64,000 bases of DNA from NCBI GenBank assembly GCA_003833075.1, contig RIAY01000001.1, positions 248,001 through 312,000 of the forward strand, read 5' to 3'. The position numbers and the translations under genes were made by a program. This DNA is from Muribaculaceae bacterium Isolate-036 (Harlan). Its GTDB lineage: Bacteria > Bacteroidota > Bacteroidia > Bacteroidales > Muribaculaceae. Shown piece after piece: positions 55,200 to 64,000 of this stretch (its first letter is position 1; each line of letters begins with the position of its first letter). Below the pieces are notes generated by a model. The model saw nothing but the letters and a program-made list of their open reading frames with translations, searched no databases and was not told where the DNA came from.

Positions 55200-58100
55200 T
55201 TACAGGGCTTTGAGGGCTTTGAGGGCTTTGAGGGCTGTCTCCACGCAGTCTGCTCCCGAAAGGGGGTATTTTTCGCGTGAATTTACCCATTTCTCATCAA
55301 TGCTGTAGAAATCTATCGGTGTCTTGTCGCCTGAAAGTTTACGCTCTATCCATGTTTTCCATCGTTCATAATAGAGTGTGCCAAGCACGCCGCTCCATTC
55401 TCTGTGACCGTAATCGCGCAGACCTCCGTCTTCGCTTGCCACACGCGGTCCCCAGGTGGTGATAAGAAGTCTGGCATTGTTTTCGAAATTGTCTCGTTCA
55501 TGTTTTGTCGGAGCCAGTCGGCGGGCATCGTCTATCCATGTGCTCACACTGAATTCCGGACGTGTGGAAAGAAGTTCGTCCTGAAGCTTTATCAAGGAAA
55601 GGAAAGAATCGGACTTGCGTCTGAATGTTTCCATATCCTTGCTCTTCAATGCTTTCTGCATCTCTGTGTAGACGATACGGCCTTTTTCGGCTATTGCCTG
55701 GCGTGTTATGTCGACAAGGTCATAGCGATAATTCTCATTCCCTTTCAGAGCAGGAGCGGCAGCAGCGAATTTTTTCGCGGCGGCAATCACATCCTCCGGC
55801 TTGTAGTAAGGTTTCATGCGGCTCCAGCTTGATACTTTCCAAGCCTTTTCCGATGGACGGGCGCAGAAAATCGACTCCGTTGTGCCCTGCTGTAGTATCC
55901 CCCAGGGGCAGTTGTAGATTGTGGCGCCAAGCATCTTCCATGCTTTTTCGGCATTCGCGTTCTTGCTGCCGTAACGTGCGCGGGAGTAACCTTCGAGCCA
56001 GTTCTCCTTGGTGAACTGTTCGGGTCGCCAGATAAGCTCTGATACAAGTTCGTACATCACCGGGTTGTTCTCGATCCCTTCCGGGGTGAGACCGATGCCT
56101 GTCATATCTTTGCCGAAACGTGAATCGCGAGCTTTATAATAACCTCCGATCACATTGTCGAGTCTTCCGTGAAGACCTACATTCCCTCCGAAGTTCAACA
56201 GCATGCACCATAGCCAGTCCTGTCCGTCGTAGCCGGTAGGACGTGGAGTTTTGGACGGTGTGTCGGGATCGCCCCATTGAGGTTTGATTTCAGATGCGAG
56301 GTCGAGAACCACAATGTCTCCTTTGGGAATGCCGGCATAAAGCTTTGCCCGCGGGTTCTCGTTCCACCCCTGTATGACCCATACCGCTTCCGGATTGGCG
56401 CGTTTCATGGCACCGGCTATGATCTTTCCTGCTTCGGTGAGATCAACGCCTTCGATGCTTCCTCCCTCATGGAATGGATCCATGCTGTAATACTTGGCAA
56501 CACCGCTCACTTTGCGCAGCTCATCATAATATATGTCAGCGATTTTGTTGAACTGCGGGTCGGTGCTTTTGAGGAATGTGGGACGCACGAAACCGTTCCA
56601 TATCCCTTTCCCCGACACATCCATGCCTAAGCGTTCTTCGGCATCGTGGGGAACCATGCCCGAATAGCCCGGAAGCACAGGCTCCATACCCAGCTCGCGC
56701 ATGCGGGTGAGGATTTTGTCCTGAAGCTCCGCGCGGTCTTCATACCATTTCTCGGAGTTGGGACCGCCCCATCCTTCGAGGTTGTTCATCAGCCACCATG
56801 CCTGGAATGCCGGACCGGCAACAAATTCGTCTGCCTCTTTCTTGCTGTAGCCGAGACGAAGCAGGGTGTTGCGCCACACGACATCGGTGCCGGTGATTGC
56901 AAGCGGCATGTTTATGCCGTGCAGTGCCATCCAGTCAATCTCTTTCTGCCACCTCTCCCAGTCCCAGAATGCCATGGAATATGAATGCGTGCAGTAGTTA
57001 AGGTAATAGCGTTGTGCGGCATCTGTGACATGACGCTCGGGACGCGACGGTAGCGGCAGAATGTCCGGTAAGTCGGCAGTCATCATGTTCCAGCTCAGAT
57101 GGATGCCTGTGTAATATTTCAGATACCAGTTTAGTCCGGAGGCTATGTTGACTGCGGAGTTTCCCTTGATCACGGGCTTGCCGTTTTCTGCGGAAATCTC
57201 GAAAAACTCATCCGGAGTGTCTGTCTGCGCGAAGATGAATCTGCGGGAACTTCCCGGACATACCCTTTCCAACAGCGATGCCACCGGGTTACAGGTGGAT
57301 TTCCATATCCTGCGCAGGTCGTTCCATCTGTAGTATCCCGGTGCCGCCTCCGCCACGCCGTTGATGCGCAACGGACGTTCGTTGAGTCTCGGTGCGACGA
57401 GTATGTCTCCCGCGGGGTTGCGAAGCAGTATAAGCTGCAGGTTCGCCCCCATGGGAGTGAGGTTCTGTTTCTGCCAGACGCACGTCGCCTTCTCGAAACC
57501 GCTCACTGAAGCATCCGCTCCCTCGGCTCCCATAAGTGCCAGAAGACGGAGCAGTGCGGTGTCGTGTCCGAAACGCAGGTCTGCTGCCGTAGGTCTCTTT
57601 CCGGCTATTGCTTCATCGGCGCGGTCAATTATATCGTTGAGGAGGTTTGTCGCGCTTCTCGGTCCTGCTCCTGTACCGTCGGGAGAATTTGCATGGCAAA
57701 CATACATCTGGTAATTCGAGCACTTCCACTGGTTATAGAGATCTTCCGGATCGAATACGCCTAATATGTCCTCGTCAATGCCGTCGACATCCTGCACGTC
57801 TATGGCAACATCATAGATATACCTCATGAGTCCCGGCAGATCTTTAACTTTGCCGGGGTCTGTGAACAGGCGCGAGGCTGTTGTCACCGAGCGTGTGAGA
57901 GAATCCTTGGCAGAGGCAAAACGCTTCCTCCAGTCGGCATCCTTCTTCTCCAGCATGCGGGTTTCGTCATTATGTCTCATGATAAACTTCATGTCGCCGG
58001 GGGAGGCATGTCTCTCGATGGTGAGGTTTGGGTTGTTTTTCTGTAATCCCTCGGTAAAGGCTGCCATGGAGATTATGCATCGCGGTTCGGTCGATGACCT

Positions 58101-58595
58101 TGCGATTATTTTTGCATTCCCTTTGAAAAGCCCCGGAAATCTTTTTGCCGTTCTGTCGGCGATGCCCGAGTGCTGGCGCTCTCCGAGCGGGGTCAGTTCT
58201 CCCCAGTGTCCTTCGGTGTGTTTCCCTAACTTCTCCACTTTGTCGAGCACCTCTCTGCCTGTGTCTGTCAGATTCCCCTGACTCTGCTCGGCACGCAGTG
58301 CGTCAGCCACAAGACGGTGGAGCTTCTTGTTTATGACCCACCTCGAACCGTGGCGTCCGTAGTGGCTGATATAAAAAGGTTCATAGCCCGACGGAGCCGG
58401 AGCCATAGAGTCGGTGGAGTAGGGGTAGGCATAATATATGCCGCCTGCTTTCTCGGGAGTGGCTTTAAACTCAGTCCGGATCTGTTGGCATTTAAGCATT
58501 TTCTGAGAGATCTGGTCTGATTTCAAGGTTTTGGCGAAACCGGTGGCAGTTATAGCCATAGTCGCCAGAATTGTTAGTGCAAATCGCTTATTCAT
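55200..58595 (-). CDS. Secreted histidine phosphatase-GH89 alpha-N-acetylglucosaminidase fusion
   Basis: This is a 1131-residue bifunctional protein. The signal peptide (MNKRFALTILATMAITATGFA) is followed by a histidine phosphatase domain (about 30-432) with the RHGSR nucleophile motif (His82) and the proton-donor HD motif (His344-Asp345). Directly after, with no linker, comes a complete GH89 domain (about 433-1120): N-terminal mixed domain, then a barrel with DPFHEGG (Glu710, putative acid/base) and TPEGI (Glu839, putative nucleophile). Their spacing of 129 residues is close to that in human NAGLU (Glu316/Glu446). The usual GH89 signal peptide is replaced by the phosphatase. Predicted actions are release of terminal alpha-GlcNAc and removal of phosphate outside the cytoplasm. 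The C-terminus ends in an ALK repeat coded by a 9-bp tandem. It is the last gene of a four-gene operon, 25 bp after its standalone phosphatase paralogue. Confidence 0.93.
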   Translation of the reverse strand: MNKRFALTILATMAITATGFAKTLKSDQISQKMLKCQQIRTEFKATPEKAGGIYYAYPYSTDSMAPAPSGYEPFYISHYGRHGSRWVINKKLHRLVADALRAEQSQGNLTDTGREVLDKVEKLGKHTEGHWGELTPLGERQHSGIADRTAKRFPGLFKGNAKIIARSSTEPRCIISMAAFTEGLQKNNPNLTIERHASPGDMKFIMRHNDETRMLEKKDADWRKRFASAKDSLTRSVTTASRLFTDPGKVKDLPGLMRYIYDVAIDVQDVDGIDEDILGVFDPEDLYNQWKCSNYQMYVCHANSPDGTGAGPRSATNLLNDIIDRADEAIAGKRPTAADLRFGHDTALLRLLALMGAEGADASVSGFEKATCVWQKQNLTPMGANLQLILLRNPAGDILVAPRLNERPLRINGVAEAAPGYYRWNDLRRIWKSTCNPVASLLERVCPGSSRRFIFAQTDTPDEFFEISAENGKPVIKGNSAVNIASGLNWYLKYYTGIHLSWNMMTADLPDILPLPSRPERHVTDAAQRYYLNYCTHSYSMAFWDWERWQKEIDWMALHGINMPLAITGTDVVWRNTLLRLGYSKKEADEFVAGPAFQAWWLMNNLEGWGGPNSEKWYEDRAELQDKILTRMRELGMEPVLPGYSGMVPHDAEERLGMDVSGKGIWNGFVRPTFLKSTDPQFNKIADIYYDELRKVSGVAKYYSMDPFHEGGSIEGVDLTEAGKIIAGAMKRANPEAVWVIQGWNENPRAKLYAGIPKGDIVVLDLASEIKPQWGDPDTPSKTPRPTGYDGQDWLWCMLLNFGGNVGLHGRLDNVIGGYYKARDSRFGKDMTGIGLTPEGIENNPVMYELVSELIWRPEQFTKENWLEGYSRARYGSKNANAEKAWKMLGATIYNCPWGILQQGTTESIFCARPSEKAWKVSSWSRMKPYYKPEDVIAAAKKFAAAAPALKGNENYRYDLVDITRQAIAEKGRIVYTEMQKALKSKDMETFRRKSDSFLSLIKLQDELLSTRPEFSVSTWIDDARRLAPTKHERDNFENNARLLITTWGPRVASEDGGLRDYGHREWSGVLGTLYYERWKTWIERKLSGDKTPIDFYSIDEKWVNSREKYPLSGADCVETALKALKALKAL
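55205..55236. repeat. 9-bp tandem repeat coding the fusion protein's C-terminal tail
   Basis: Three exact GGGCTTTGA units plus a partial fourth encode Ala-Leu-Lys repeats immediately before the stop codon. Slippage by whole units would change tail length without breaking the frame. Confidence 0.85.
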
Positions 58596-58620: not shown

Positions 58621-59922
58621 TTATTCCAGAGTTTTTCTCCATTTGGCGTTCAGATCGCTCCAGCGGTAATAACCCGGAGCATACTCTTTGACTCCGTGAA
58701 TCTTTGCCGGTCGCTCGTTGAGGAGCACGGTGGCGATTTCCTCACCCTTCGCATTGCGGAATATTGTGATCTGAAGGTTGGCTGCCATCGGTGTGAGGCG
58801 GTATTCCTGCCATACTCTTGACGCTTCGTCTATCCCCCGCGCCTCGTCATCGCTGCCTTCTATTCCCATAAGTGCGAGCTGGCGCAGTAGGAAAACGTCA
58901 TGTCCGAAGCGCAGATCGACAGCGGTGCGTTTCCCGGCAAGACTCTCATCTGCGCAGTCAAGGATGTCTTTCATAAGATTTTTTGATGACTGCGGACCGT
59001 TACGCTTGCCATCGACTGAATTGCCATGACGCACATATTGTCTGTATGCCTCCCCTTTCCAAAGGTTGTAAAGGTCTTCATGATTGAAATGCGTAAGAAG
59101 ATTCACATCAAGTCCGTCTACGTTCTGCACTGCGATCGCCACATGATGAAGATCTTTCATTACCTGCGGAAGTTTCTTGATCTTCGAAGGGTCGCGGAAC
59201 AGTCTTGATGCTGTGGCTTTACATTGATAGAGAGAGTCGCACGCTTTGTCGTAAGGAATCTTCCATTCCTGAGGCTTTTTGTAAATGTCAAGCGCTTCCT
59301 GTGTGTGGAACGCGATGAAATTCATGTCGCCGGGTGTGGCGTGGCGTTGTAATTCCAGTCTTGGGTTATACTCTTTCAAAGCCTCTGAGAACGCCGCCAT
59401 TGAAATGATACACCGTGGCTCGGTGGAACTCCTGGCTACAATCACGTCTCCATCCTTGAAGAGGGATGGGAAACGCTCGCACATACGGGTGGCGATGGCT
59501 TTGTGCTGACGCTCGCCGAGTGCCGAAAGCTCGCCGATATGACCTTTTGTATGATCGCGACATATCTCCACAAGCTTCATGACTTCTTCACCTTCGGCTG
59601 TCAGATTGCCGGCGGCATACTGCTTCTGCAACACTTTCAGAGTATTGTCGTGAAGTTTGGCGGATGTGTGCCATCTCGAGCCATGGCGCCCGTAATGGCT
59701 GATATAAACGGGTTCGAATCCCGCCGGTACGGGAGCCAGGGAGTCTGTGCTATACGGATAAGCGTAATAGATGCCTCCGGACTTCTCGGGCGTCGCGGCA
59801 ATCTCCCTGCGGATTTCCATGTCCGCAGGATTGACAATTTTTGTCTGCTTCTCTTTTTTTGCACTTGCGCAGAATGATGTCATCATCATCGCGGCGGTGC
59901 TGATCAGGATTAATTTTTTCAT
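58621..59922 (-). CDS. Secreted histidine-type phosphatase
   Basis: This is a 433-residue protein with a signal peptide (MKKLILISTAAMMMTSFCASA). It is a branch-2 histidine phosphatase: nucleophile His80 in YGRHGSRW and proton donor in FGHD (His341-Asp342). HD rather than HAE argues against the MINPP clade and for an acid phosphatase, sugar-phosphatase or phytase type. It is a close paralogue of the first ~430 residues of the next gene; for example both share TPEK.GGIYYAYPYSTDS and end in APGYYRW.DL. It overlaps the kinase gene by 4 bp and precedes the fusion gene by 25 bp. The substrate is unknown; sugar phosphates or inositol phosphates are both possible. Confidence 0.9.
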   Translation of the reverse strand: MKKLILISTAAMMMTSFCASAKKEKQTKIVNPADMEIRREIAATPEKSGGIYYAYPYSTDSLAPVPAGFEPVYISHYGRHGSRWHTSAKLHDNTLKVLQKQYAAGNLTAEGEEVMKLVEICRDHTKGHIGELSALGERQHKAIATRMCERFPSLFKDGDVIVARSSTEPRCIISMAAFSEALKEYNPRLELQRHATPGDMNFIAFHTQEALDIYKKPQEWKIPYDKACDSLYQCKATASRLFRDPSKIKKLPQVMKDLHHVAIAVQNVDGLDVNLLTHFNHEDLYNLWKGEAYRQYVRHGNSVDGKRNGPQSSKNLMKDILDCADESLAGKRTAVDLRFGHDVFLLRQLALMGIEGSDDEARGIDEASRVWQEYRLTPMAANLQITIFRNAKGEEIATVLLNERPAKIHGVKEYAPGYYRWSDLNAKWRKTLE

Positions 59923-60806
59923 TGTGAGTTTTTAATGGAGTTGCGTATGAGTTTTTCCACATCTTCTTCGGTTCCGCTGAAGGGTCCCTTGTCCTGGAGT
60001 TTAAGGGTGCACATCGCGGCTGCGAAAGTGCCGGCTTCCTGATAGGAGGCACCGCGGCTTCTCTTGTAGAGATACCCCGCCATGTAGGTGTCGCCGCAGC
60101 CTGTGGCGTCCACGAGGTCGGCTGGGGGCAATGCGGGAATCTCGTGGAAGACTCCCTCTGTGTAGATAATCGAGCCTTTGTCACCCAAAGTGAGAAGCAC
60201 CTCGCGGCAGCCCCAGCCGGAAAGTATCTTGGCGGCGCGGCGCGGGTCTGTCGTGCCTGTAAGAACCTCCATCTCCTTTTCGTTGGCTTTAAGAATGGAG
60301 ATATACGGCATTGCCTCACGCTTCTTGTCATAATCGACATGCACTACGTCCTCGCCTGTGACCTTGCGGAGATACCCCTGCACATCCACAGCCACTGTTC
60401 CTTTGGCGGCGAGTGCCTTGATGGTGTCAAGGTCGAAATCGTCAGCAAGGAGTGTGCCGAGGTGATATATGTCGGCGTTGATATCGCGGAGGTTCTCGGC
60501 GGTGAAAGGGTCTGCCTTGGCAAGCACACGCTGGGTGCGGTTGTTCATGTCTTCACCGTATTTGTTTTCAAAATATACGGATTTGCGGCTTGGAATCACC
60601 TTGACATCGATTCCTTCGGAACGGAGTTCCTCCACAACCCCCATCTCTGATTCTCCGAGGGAGGTGACGAGGGTAAAGCCGGTATGGTCGAAATTCTTGA
60701 GAGCCTTGGCGAAGTAAAAAGCTGTTCCGCCGGGCATATGCGCCTCAAAACGCGGAGTTATTACCTTGTCGAGCGTGATGTGCCCGATGCAGCATATATT
60801 TTTCAT
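59919..60806 (-). CDS. PfkB family carbohydrate kinase
   Basis: This is a 295-residue cytosolic ribokinase-fold enzyme. The ATG at 60806 overlaps the permease stop (ATGA); a much longer upstream frame has no domain and lies inside the permease gene. The substrate-side motif is MPGGTAFYFAKAL near residue 24. The PfkB signature is DATGCGD, with catalytic Asp239. It phosphorylates a sugar or polyol with ATP, presumably the product imported by the co-transcribed permease. GlcNAc kinases are usually ROK enzymes, so the target may be another sugar or inositol. Confidence 0.9.
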   Translation of the reverse strand: MKNICCIGHITLDKVITPRFEAHMPGGTAFYFAKALKNFDHTGFTLVTSLGESEMGVVEELRSEGIDVKVIPSRKSVYFENKYGEDMNNRTQRVLAKADPFTAENLRDINADIYHLGTLLADDFDLDTIKALAAKGTVAVDVQGYLRKVTGEDVVHVDYDKKREAMPYISILKANEKEMEVLTGTTDPRRAAKILSGWGCREVLLTLGDKGSIIYTEGVFHEIPALPPADLVDATGCGDTYMAGYLYKRSRGASYQEAGTFAAAMCTLKLQDKGPFSGTEEDVEKLIRNSIKNSQ

Positions 60807-62002
60807 TTTGTTTTCAGTTTTAAAGCATAAATCAATACGAAGAGATAACCGACGGCTGGCACTATGAATGCCGTGGACATGGATGTGGCGTCGGCTACTA
60901 TTCCCATCAGCGAGGTGCCTACGGCTCCACCGATGGGTGTCATCATAAGGAAAGATGAGGCTATTTTCACATTCTTTCCCGCATCCCTGATGGTGATTGC
61001 GAAGATTGTAGGGAACATTATCGCCTCGAACGCATAGCATACAAAAACTCCGCCACGCGATATCACTCCGAGATCAAGAGTGACGGCAACAGCTCCCGCA
61101 ACGGTCATCAACGCGCAGACGAGAAGCACTTTCTCGGCTTTAATGCGGCTCATGATCGCGCTGCCCGCTACCCTTGCCACCATGAATAGACCCAAAGCGC
61201 CGAACGAAAGAACCAACGATGCCGTGGCTTTGTCCATCCAGCCGTCTGAGGTGGCGTAATTGATGAAAAGGGAATTTATGGATATTTCCGCAACTTCATA
61301 ACAGAACAGCGCGAGGAGTCCGTAGCGGAAAGTTTTCCTTTTCCATAGGTCGCGGATTGTAGCCGCAAGACCAGTGTCAGCTGTGGAGTGGCGGGTTTCG
61401 GTTTCAGAGCTGTCTGAGATTTCAGGAAGGCTGACGCGTGAAAACACCAGTGCGGCTACAAGTACAATCACACCCATGATGGTGTAGGGCACTTCGACAC
61501 CGCCGCTGCCGCCTGAGAACAGGAAACCTCCCACAATCACCGGAGCGAGTATACACCCCAGTCCGTTGAACGACTGCGCCAGATTAAGGCGTGACGCCGC
61601 CGTTGCCTTGTCGCCTAATTCAGCCGCGTAGGGGTTTGCCGATGTCTCCAGCATCACGAGTCCGCAGCCAATCACGAAAAGCGCCACTAAGAATATAGGG
61701 AAGGAAAGCATGGCTGAACCAGGAATAAACAGCAATGCTCCGATTCCGAAAAGAAGAAGTCCGGTCACTACACCTCTCCTGTATCCGAAACGGGTGATAA
61801 GGATACCGGCAGGAAGTGCCATCAGAAAATAGCCGAGATATGTAGTGGCTTGTATGAGTGTGGATTGCGTGATGGAGATTTCCAATGACTCCTGAAAGTG
61901 TTTGTTGAGAACGTCCAGAATCGCGCGGGCAAATCCCCACATGAAAAAGAGGGAGGTAATAAGTATGAATGGTAGCAGATACTTCTTACTTACAAGTTTC
62001 AT
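60803..62002 (-). CDS. FucP/NagP-like MFS sugar permease
   Basis: This 399-residue protein has 12 hydrophobic segments. The ATG at 62002 is chosen because it is followed by MKLVSKKYLLPFILITSLFF and preceded by a promoter; an upstream frame would start inside it. The segment FFMWGFARAILDVLNKHFQ is the FucP-family opening, and ETSANPYAAELG near residue 125 the conserved core. Relatives import fucose, glucose/galactose or, in the NagP branch, GlcNAc by proton symport. It leads the operon and overlaps the kinase gene by 4 bp, tying transport to phosphorylation. Confidence 0.9.
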   Translation of the reverse strand: MKLVSKKYLLPFILITSLFFMWGFARAILDVLNKHFQESLEISITQSTLIQATTYLGYFLMALPAGILITRFGYRRGVVTGLLLFGIGALLFIPGSAMLSFPIFLVALFVIGCGLVMLETSANPYAAELGDKATAASRLNLAQSFNGLGCILAPVIVGGFLFSGGSGGVEVPYTIMGVIVLVAALVFSRVSLPEISDSSETETRHSTADTGLAATIRDLWKRKTFRYGLLALFCYEVAEISINSLFINYATSDGWMDKATASLVLSFGALGLFMVARVAGSAIMSRIKAEKVLLVCALMTVAGAVAVTLDLGVISRGGVFVCYAFEAIMFPTIFAITIRDAGKNVKIASSFLMMTPIGGAVGTSLMGIVADATSMSTAFIVPAVGYLFVLIYALKLKTK

Positions 62003-62032
62003 TCTGTCAGGTTTTAATTTTATTAGAAATTG

Positions 62033-62040
62033 CAAATTTA
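62033..62040 (-). promoter_or_regulatory. -7 promoter element of the permease-kinase-phosphatase-GH89 operon
   Basis: The minus strand reads TAAATTTG, 30 bp before the permease ATG. Confidence 0.55.
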
Positions 62041-62180
62041 ATAAAAAAATCTCCAACCTGAGTAATTTGGCAATTTATCCTCGTGAAAGCAGCCGTATAT
62101 GTATATCTTTACTCGGCTGATAATTAGTAAAATAGCATTATGTAGATTTGGCACTGCCCACCAATGGATCATTCTTGATA

Positions 62181-62359: not shown

Positions 62360-64000
62360 ATGTGTAATTCAGGACAAGGGCACGGTGGGAAATATACTGC
62401 CCCCCCTGCTGCTAAAAAATGGAAATGGCTCACCATCGTATTGGTGTTCCTTATGACATCCTTTACAATCAATGCTCAGACAAGTGTGACAGGTACAGTG
62501 ACCGATGAAGCCGGCGAACCTCTGGTCGGCGCGAGTGTCGTGGTGCCCGGAACTACTGTCGGTGCCTCGACCGACATCGACGGCAATTTCAAACTGAACG
62601 TTGCTCAAGGAAAGAAGATACGTGTCTCCTACGTGGGCTATGTGTCAAAAGAGGTTGAAGTGAAGGGTTCTCATCTAAACATCGCCCTCAAGGAAGATAA
62701 TGAGGTTCTCGACGAGGTGGTTGTGATCGGTTACGGCACAATGAAGAAAAAAGACCTTACCGGTTCCATCACTACTGTCAATTCCAAAGACCTCAACGTA
62801 GGTTCCTACACCGATCCGGGTCAGTTGCTACAAGGTAAGGTTCCCGGACTTGTAGTAGTGCAGAACTCAGACCCTAACGGTGGTGTCAATTCTTTGACAC
62901 TTCGTGGAGCTTCCACTCTCAACGGTTCAACAGAACCCCTCTATGTTGTTGACGGAATCCCGGGAGTGAACCTTAACCTTATCCCACCTGCCGACATTGA
63001 GAGTATCGATGTGCTCCGCGATGCTTCGGCTACAGCCATCTATGGTTCAAAGGCTGCCAATGGTGTAATCATTGTAACTACTAAAAAAGGCTCGGATGGT
63101 CCGGCTCGTGTATCCTACCAGGGTTACGTATCCTGGGAGCGCATCGCCAACGACCATAAAATGATGACAGCCTCGCAGCTTCGTCAATATGCCGAGGAGA
63201 ACAATATTCCAATCCCCAATGACAAAGGAGCCGACACCAATTGGGCAAAAGAGACACAGCGCACTGGTTTCGCCACTAATCACAACCTCTCCATCTCCGG
63301 TGGCACCAAGAGCACGAGCTACAACGCTTCGGTGAACTATATCAAGCGTGACGGTATTATAAAAGGCGTAGGCAACAACCTTTTCACGGCACGTGCATAT
63401 GTTGAAACAAAACTTCTCAAAGACCGTCTCCTTTTGGGAGCCGGAGTCAACGGCAACATCCGCAATGAATCGGGTGTCCCCCGCAACAAGCAGGGAGCTT
63501 CAGTATACGAGGCAATGTATTATTACTCACCCCTTGAACCGGTGCGCAATGAAGACGGATCGTGGTATTCCAATACAGATGTATCTCAATATTACAACCC
63601 TCTTTCACAGGTATATGAAGATCGTTCTATGGCAACTTTCAAGCGTTGGCAAGTAACGGGCAAGGCTCGTCTGAAAATCCTTGAAGGACTTTTCCTCAAC
63701 GGCAACTTCGCCTATGAGAACCAGAACAAGAATTACAAGGAATATCTCTCTACCGAATCGCAGACCAATCATCGTCATGGTCAGACCACACGGGAAGTTC
63801 TTGACTGGGAAAGCAAGCTTATGGAAATCTTTGCCAACTATGACAAAGACTTCGGTGAGGATCACCGCATGGCACTCATGGCAGGTTATTCCTGGGAAGA
63901 GCGCAAAGACGAAGAAGGATTCGGTGCAAAAGGCTACAACTATTATGACGACTCCCTTGGCTGGAACGACATAGGTATGGCAAACTCATGGGATACAGAT
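62360..64000 (+). CDS. SusC-like TonB-dependent receptor, cut by the right edge
   Basis: The first 547 codons are visible and open to the window end. After a signal peptide preceded by a polar Gly-rich head (MCNSGQGHGGKY) comes a carboxypeptidase-regulatory-like domain (VTGTVTDEAGEPLVGASVVV). The TonB-box-like DEVVVIGYG follows, then the plug with EPLYVVDGIPG and the IYGSKAANGVIIVTTKKG signature of the SusC/RagA family. The barrel begins near residue 290. It is not closely similar to the SusC at 33.8 kb. It diverges from the GH89-phosphatase operon and may belong to the same utilisation system; a SusD partner would lie beyond the edge. Confidence 0.93.
   Translation, partial: MCNSGQGHGGKYTAPPAAKKWKWLTIVLVFLMTSFTINAQTSVTGTVTDEAGEPLVGASVVVPGTTVGASTDIDGNFKLNVAQGKKIRVSYVGYVSKEVEVKGSHLNIALKEDNEVLDEVVVIGYGTMKKKDLTGSITTVNSKDLNVGSYTDPGQLLQGKVPGLVVVQNSDPNGGVNSLTLRGASTLNGSTEPLYVVDGIPGVNLNLIPPADIESIDVLRDASATAIYGSKAANGVIIVTTKKGSDGPARVSYQGYVSWERIANDHKMMTASQLRQYAEENNIPIPNDKGADTNWAKETQRTGFATNHNLSISGGTKSTSYNASVNYIKRDGIIKGVGNNLFTARAYVETKLLKDRLLLGAGVNGNIRNESGVPRNKQGASVYEAMYYYSPLEPVRNEDGSWYSNTDVSQYYNPLSQVYEDRSMATFKRWQVTGKARLKILEGLFLNGNFAYENQNKNYKEYLSTESQTNHRHGQTTREVLDWESKLMEIFANYDKDFGEDHRMALMAGYSWEERKDEEGFGAKGYNYYDDSLGWNDIGMANSWDTD

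Follow-up and report, generated by a model that had tools for sequence, protein, structure and literature searches.

The locus described here raises the question of why a gut bacterium should carry a histidine phosphatase and a GH89 alpha-N-acetylglucosaminidase in a single polypeptide. The window, the whole stretch of DNA that was analysed, comprises 64,000 nucleotides of contig RIAY01000001.1 from Muribaculaceae bacterium Isolate-036 (Harlan), and the gene occupies 55200..58595 on its minus strand, a single open frame of 1131 residues with an ATG start and zero internal stops. Pfam places His_Phos_2 at residues 81-392 (E 5.7e-15), NAGLU_N at 437-514 (E 1.2e-22), NAGLU at 529-857 (E 2.2e-127) and NAGLU_C at 866-1113 (E 9.1e-77), and a search of NCBIfam returned no named family. 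Together with intact motifs in both halves, this bears out the original prediction that one frame holds a pair of complete domains, both apparently active. A hydrophobic N-terminal segment, MNKRFALTILATMAITATGFA (58530..58595, minus strand), looks by eye like a signal peptide. The phosphatase domain, of histidine phosphatase branch 2, extends over residues 37-432 (57300..58487, minus strand), and the GH89 region, delimited by Pfam, alignment and fold search, over residues 434-1113 (55257..57296, minus strand). The phosphatase match to 7r5y stops at residue 432 and the match to CpGH89 starts at 430-434; the junction (residues 430-437; 57285..57308, minus strand) is therefore without a linker, as had been proposed. 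A structure prediction of the junction, suggested at the same time, gives the same picture: in the AF2 model of the fusion (mean pLDDT 78, pTM 0.71) a helix at 424-434 runs nearly straight into a helix at 437-445, with confidence blocks of 79-91 across residues 411-470.

The phosphatase half carries both signatures of branch 2 (RHGxR plus HD), with R81-H-G-S-R85 as the nucleophile motif and H344-D345 as the proton donor. Its nearest sequence matches are 7r5y and BtMINPP, and by sequence as well as fold search MINPP structures are the best match over the whole domain; the fold search lists 7r5y as a MINPP from Prevotella, bound to a myo-inositol hexakis-ligand. It is like BtMINPP (Bt4744; 4fdt, 5cx4) and the Prevotella sp. 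CAG:617 enzyme (7r5y) in its branch 2 fold, its RHGSR motif and its full-length match, but unlike them it is fused to GH89 and lies near CAZymes and an inositol kinase. The HAE proton-donor tripeptide, a hallmark of MINPP (PMC3969271), is absent, and because HDT replaces it, leaving HD in contrast to the HAE-type enzymes, we use the term MINPP-like; 7r5y, labelled MINPP, likewise aligns with HDT. The earlier identification as a histidine phosphatase holds, whereas its generic nature does not: this half belongs with the MINPP-like phosphatases of the inositol-phosphate type.

The second half contains the NAGLU_N, NAGLU barrel and NAGLU_C domains of GH89 and aligns over its full length with CpGH89. 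Its catalytic residues E710 (in DPFHEGG) and E839 (in TPEGI) align with E483 and E601 of CpGH89, the two residues mutated to Q in 4a4a (PMC8225759). The three-domain arrangement with a central TIM-barrel and both catalytic glutamates is common to CpGH89 (2vc9, 4a4a), human NAGLU (4xwh) and Bt3590, but none of these carries a phosphatase, whereas here GH89 forms the second half of a fusion in what may be a glycosyl-inositol-type locus. Trp924 aligns with CpGH89 Trp685, whose loop has been tied to GlcNAc-alpha-1,4-Gal rather than GlcNAc-alpha-1,4-GlcA (PMC8225759). As a guide to substrate this loop signature was not decisive, the Ser-Ser-Trp region being kept in Bacteroidales GH89s both beside and away from an HGSNAT gene.

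The fusion lies in an operon that also contains a standalone MINPP-like paralogue of 433 aa (58621..59922, minus strand; 53-54% identical to the fused phosphatase), a PfkB-family kinase (59919..60809, minus strand) and a FucP/NagP-type MFS transporter (60803..62056, minus strand; likely ATG start near 62002). The order MFS-kinase-phosphatase(s)-fusion is conserved in G317 and G347, two genomes of the same family. The closest match of the kinase is TM0415, which phosphorylates myo-inositol to myo-inositol monophosphate, and in the alignment all four TM0415 residues that contact inositol (D11, N78, Q141, R145) are kept (PMC5931981); we predict it to be a myo-inositol kinase. It shares the PfkB fold family with the myo-inositol kinases TM0415 and that of Thermococcus kodakarensis but lacks the motif for PPi-dependence, RXGRGD, the alignment showing DATGCGD instead, so that use of ATP is predicted. 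The kinase-MFS pair is common across the family, in most genomes of which no phosphatase lies beside it, and in another genus (L212) the inositol kinase and MFS genes adjoin GH28 and a phosphatase. The link of operon and locus to inositol is, in our judgement, moderately supported.

The divergent half of the locus starts with a SusC-like transporter (62360..64000, plus strand) that runs beyond the end of the window, where it is followed by SusD, GH92, a domain of about 180 aa, GH28, a lectin-bearing protein of 910 aa, a second GH92 and an HGSNAT-type protein, which is of the GlcN N-acetyltransferase type. The whole genome holds one GH89, two GH92 and one HGSNAT, all of them here within about 25 kb. 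With its SusC/SusD pair and linked CAZymes this is a Bacteroidota polysaccharide utilization locus; Sus-type loci share the pair together with several glycoside hydrolases, and related loci also contain hybrid two-component sensors, as Sus-type loci do. The window locus differs from these in adding an HGSNAT-type acyltransferase, a MINPP-like phosphatase and an inositol kinase, and our literature search found no matching substrate for such a locus. Heparan sulfate was considered and set aside, since those genes of the locus to which homology gave a label or to which a Pfam scan was applied include neither a sulfatase nor a polysaccharide lyase, which is a partial test. No head-group phospholipase was seen among the same genes; such an enzyme could have its gene in another part of the genome or come from other organisms.

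GH28 is known for uronic acid linkages, GH92 comprises alpha-mannosidases and GH89 alpha-GlcNAcases, and HGSNAT proteins N-acetylate GlcN, which enables NAGLU to act. Taken as a set, a MINPP-like phosphatase, an inositol kinase, GH28, GH92, GH89 and HGSNAT suit a GlcN(Ac)/Man-uronic acid-inositol-phosphate, although no GH28 is known to act on alpha-GlcA-inositol. That the substrate carries both phosphate and alpha-GlcNAc, as the original prediction held, is the reading favoured by the gene surroundings, and we put at about an even chance that the protein is an exported bifunctional enzyme acting on glycosyl-inositol-phosphates handled by the locus. The most likely natural source would be plant GIPC, that is Man or GlcN(Ac)-GlcA-inositol-P-ceramide. 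Plant GIPCs consist of GlcA-IPC bearing Man, GlcN or GlcNAc, followed by hexose and pentose in the higher series, and barley grain contains many HexN-HexA-IPC species (PMC9113257, PMC12201980). They reportedly predominate among the glycosphingolipids of plant membranes (PMC12201980), which means that gut microbes encounter them daily. Fungus-attacked plants release phosphorylated oligosaccharides of the GIPC head-group kind (PMC11496612). The Botrytis GIPC phospholipase C described there releases the very glycosyl-inositol-phosphates that the window locus would consume, but it is fungal and acts at the lipid end, and the text consulted describes no bacterial consumer (PMC11496612).

Export, substrate, reaction order and activity we infer from gene content, as follows. 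The SusC/D pair would import glycosyl-inositol-phosphates, from which the GH89 half would remove terminal alpha-linked GlcNAc, once the HGSNAT-type protein has N-acetylated free GlcN, or from which GH92 would take off alpha-mannose. GH28 could then remove the uronic acid and the MINPP-like half cleave the phosphate monoester from the inositol ring, fused and standalone phosphatases together freeing inositol, which the MFS carrier would import. Phosphorylation by the PfkB kinase might finally feed an inositol-lipid cluster at another place in the genome, which does carry MIPS (L206:3659-8605, G000:C1). The neighbours of MIPS, as read from sequence, look like members of the alternate inositol-lipid cluster, namely its NTP-transferase, CDP-alcohol transferase and HAD genes (PMC9246714). 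In a fuller reading, the locus would encode in one place the steps from acetylation of free GlcN to inositol salvage, by which a gut bacterium takes apart the head groups of plant GIPCs, and selection would more than once have joined the phosphatase to glycosidases; this we advance tentatively and hold to be somewhat short of an even chance. Several observations count against GIPC: the mucin-type loop with Trp924, HD in place of HAE, the lack of a head-group phospholipase among the genes surveyed, the many GH89 loci devoid of partner genes, the kinase-MFS pairs that mostly stand without a phosphatase, and the fact that GPI and fungal inositol glycolipids likewise contain GlcN, Man and inositol-P.

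A scenario that we regard as unlikely, though not far-fetched, involves two unrelated nutrients, the phosphatase scavenging phosphate or inositol from phytate and GH89 trimming alpha-GlcNAc of mucin or heparan-type glycans, with the genes fused as co-regulated neighbours and not through a common substrate. Each half would have a precedent, as BtMINPP is an InsP6 phosphatase located in periplasm and vesicles (PMC3969271) and the substrates of GH89 enzymes include class III mucin glycans as well as heparosan (PMC8225759), and Trp924 fits the mucin-type loop of CpGH89. However, Arg183 of BtMINPP, which matters for the attack on InsP6 (PMC3969271), has no conserved counterpart in the alignment of either the standalone paralogue or the G317 fusion, and the phosphatase keeps particular company. 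In 15 of the 19 loci of its close subfamily a GH28, GH92, GH43 or GH89 gene lies no more than about 10 kb away, whereas the 15 loci of distant paralogues have none (p 2e-6); three of the 19 were chosen through GH89. Among 80 named GH89 loci, picked on GH89 similarity alone, HGSNAT occurs in 24, GH92 in 15, GH28 in nine and MINPP-like genes in nine (0, 1, 0 and 0 in 19 regions picked arbitrarily, not at random), and 51 have no HGSNAT, GH92, GH28 or MINPP. The distant paralogues are a stronger control than these arbitrary regions. The BLAST seeds came partly from the loci under study, and the domain of about 180 aa, matched by BLAST as a partial phosphatase, was left out of the statistics as a separate domain. 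The phosphatase has, moreover, been fused separately to GH89 and to GH92, the latter in four Prevotellaceae loci (L125:6421-9783, L135:6733-9945, L139:14721-18188, L153:1528-4863). These associations and fusions also count in favour of the glycosyl-inositol-phosphate reading.

A common substrate could also be a GPI-anchor glycan, or a fungal or protist inositol glycolipid, with GlcN-alpha-inositol-P and mannose. The generally known structure of the GPI core offers a bond or a product for each of GH92, HGSNAT, GH89, the MINPP-like phosphatase and the inositol kinase, but GH28, present in 11 of the 19 close phosphatase loci, finds no uronic acid there, and GH43 near the phosphatase suits the pentose-bearing plant GIPCs better; we consider a GPI-type substrate decidedly unlikely. 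Very improbable is the proposal of a GlcNAc-alpha-1-phospho-sugar cap, or a phosphomannan, on which the glycosidase would expose a phosphate for the phosphatase. Both activities are predicted and GH92 mannosidases are at hand, but the phosphatase as well as the kinase suggests inositol, and GH28 and HGSNAT would be left without a role. Nothing was found in support of the cap suggested by the original prediction, operon and locus indicating glycosyl-inositol-phosphate, and exposure of a phosphomonoester by the glycosidase is not required, because on such a substrate glycosidase and phosphatase would act at opposite ends. That the fusion is an assembly or frameshift artefact, for which nothing speaks, can be dismissed, since it recurs in three other genomes and an unfused pair adjoins in the same order in a further one.

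These homologues (G317, G347 and G181; records L075, L076 and L090) all belong to the same family and have an identical architecture, which, with a frame free of stops and frameshifts, confirms the expectation of a genuine fusion. That of G317 is 72% identical over residues 32-1128, that of G347, cut by a contig end, 71%, and that of G181, an ORF of 1225 aa, 62%. In Muribaculum caecicola (L077) phosphatase and GH89 genes are unfused and adjoin in the order of the fusion with an overlap of 13 nt. No further fusion was found among the sampled genomes of family, genus and order, and none outside the family among 393 genomes sampled from the order. In the tree, the standalone copies of the operon are the sister group of the fused phosphatases from the window, G317 and G347, while the G181 phosphatase clusters with its unfused counterpart in M. 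caecicola, and a single clade of fused phosphatase halves is rejected (p 1.9e-5); the GH89 halves fall into a single group, with weak support (61). That the fusion arose once and both of its halves were then inherited vertically is accordingly rejected for the phosphatase halves, which leaves two separate fusions, or one fusion whose phosphatase half was exchanged afterwards. The fusion itself, the firm family assignments, the catalytic and kinase contact residues, the gene order and the recurrence can be considered established at the level of sequence.

As had been surmised, the domain pairing seems to be undescribed: a search of the literature that left aside most subscription journals and preprints found no paper on such an architecture or locus, nor a bacterial route for GIPC head groups. 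Taken as a whole, the original interpretation is partly supported. If the GIPC reading is true, it would connect diet-derived inositol with the synthesis of inositol lipids by bacteria, a process that in B. thetaiotaomicron influences how fit the organism is in mice (PMC9246714). It would also provide new roles for HGSNAT-type proteins and for GH28, GH89 and GH92. Should the substrate have been guessed wrongly, the fusions of MINPP with GH89 and, separately, with GH92 still attest to a chemistry that couples phosphatase and glycosidase and of which we found no description in the literature searched, and fusion and locus supply specific genes for testing the breakdown of GIPC head groups.

Some further features of these loci deserve mention. 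The 910-aa protein (L074:13328-16060) has ricin-type and laminin G domains, while its first 420 aa, which include an SPLNEPD stretch, gave no Pfam or PDB sequence match. A domain of about 150-180 aa without a Pfam match occurs alone, N-terminal to MINPP-like phosphatases or C-terminal to GH92 (L074:9671-10204; L124:9352-9924; L136:9379-9918; the first ~180 aa of L068; C-terminal parts in L125, L139, L146, L150 and L153), so that other genomes fuse GH92 to it; its model has a pLDDT of 86 and only weak PDB matches (PNGase domains, LolB/LolA). In L136 a calcineurin-like phosphoesterase (L136:5484-7076) lies between GH28 and GH92 genes and might carry out a phosphodiester step there. Finally, the 3' end of the fusion gene (window 55203-55235) encodes a short Ala-Leu-Lys repeat, a tandem array of the 9-nt unit gccctcaaa.
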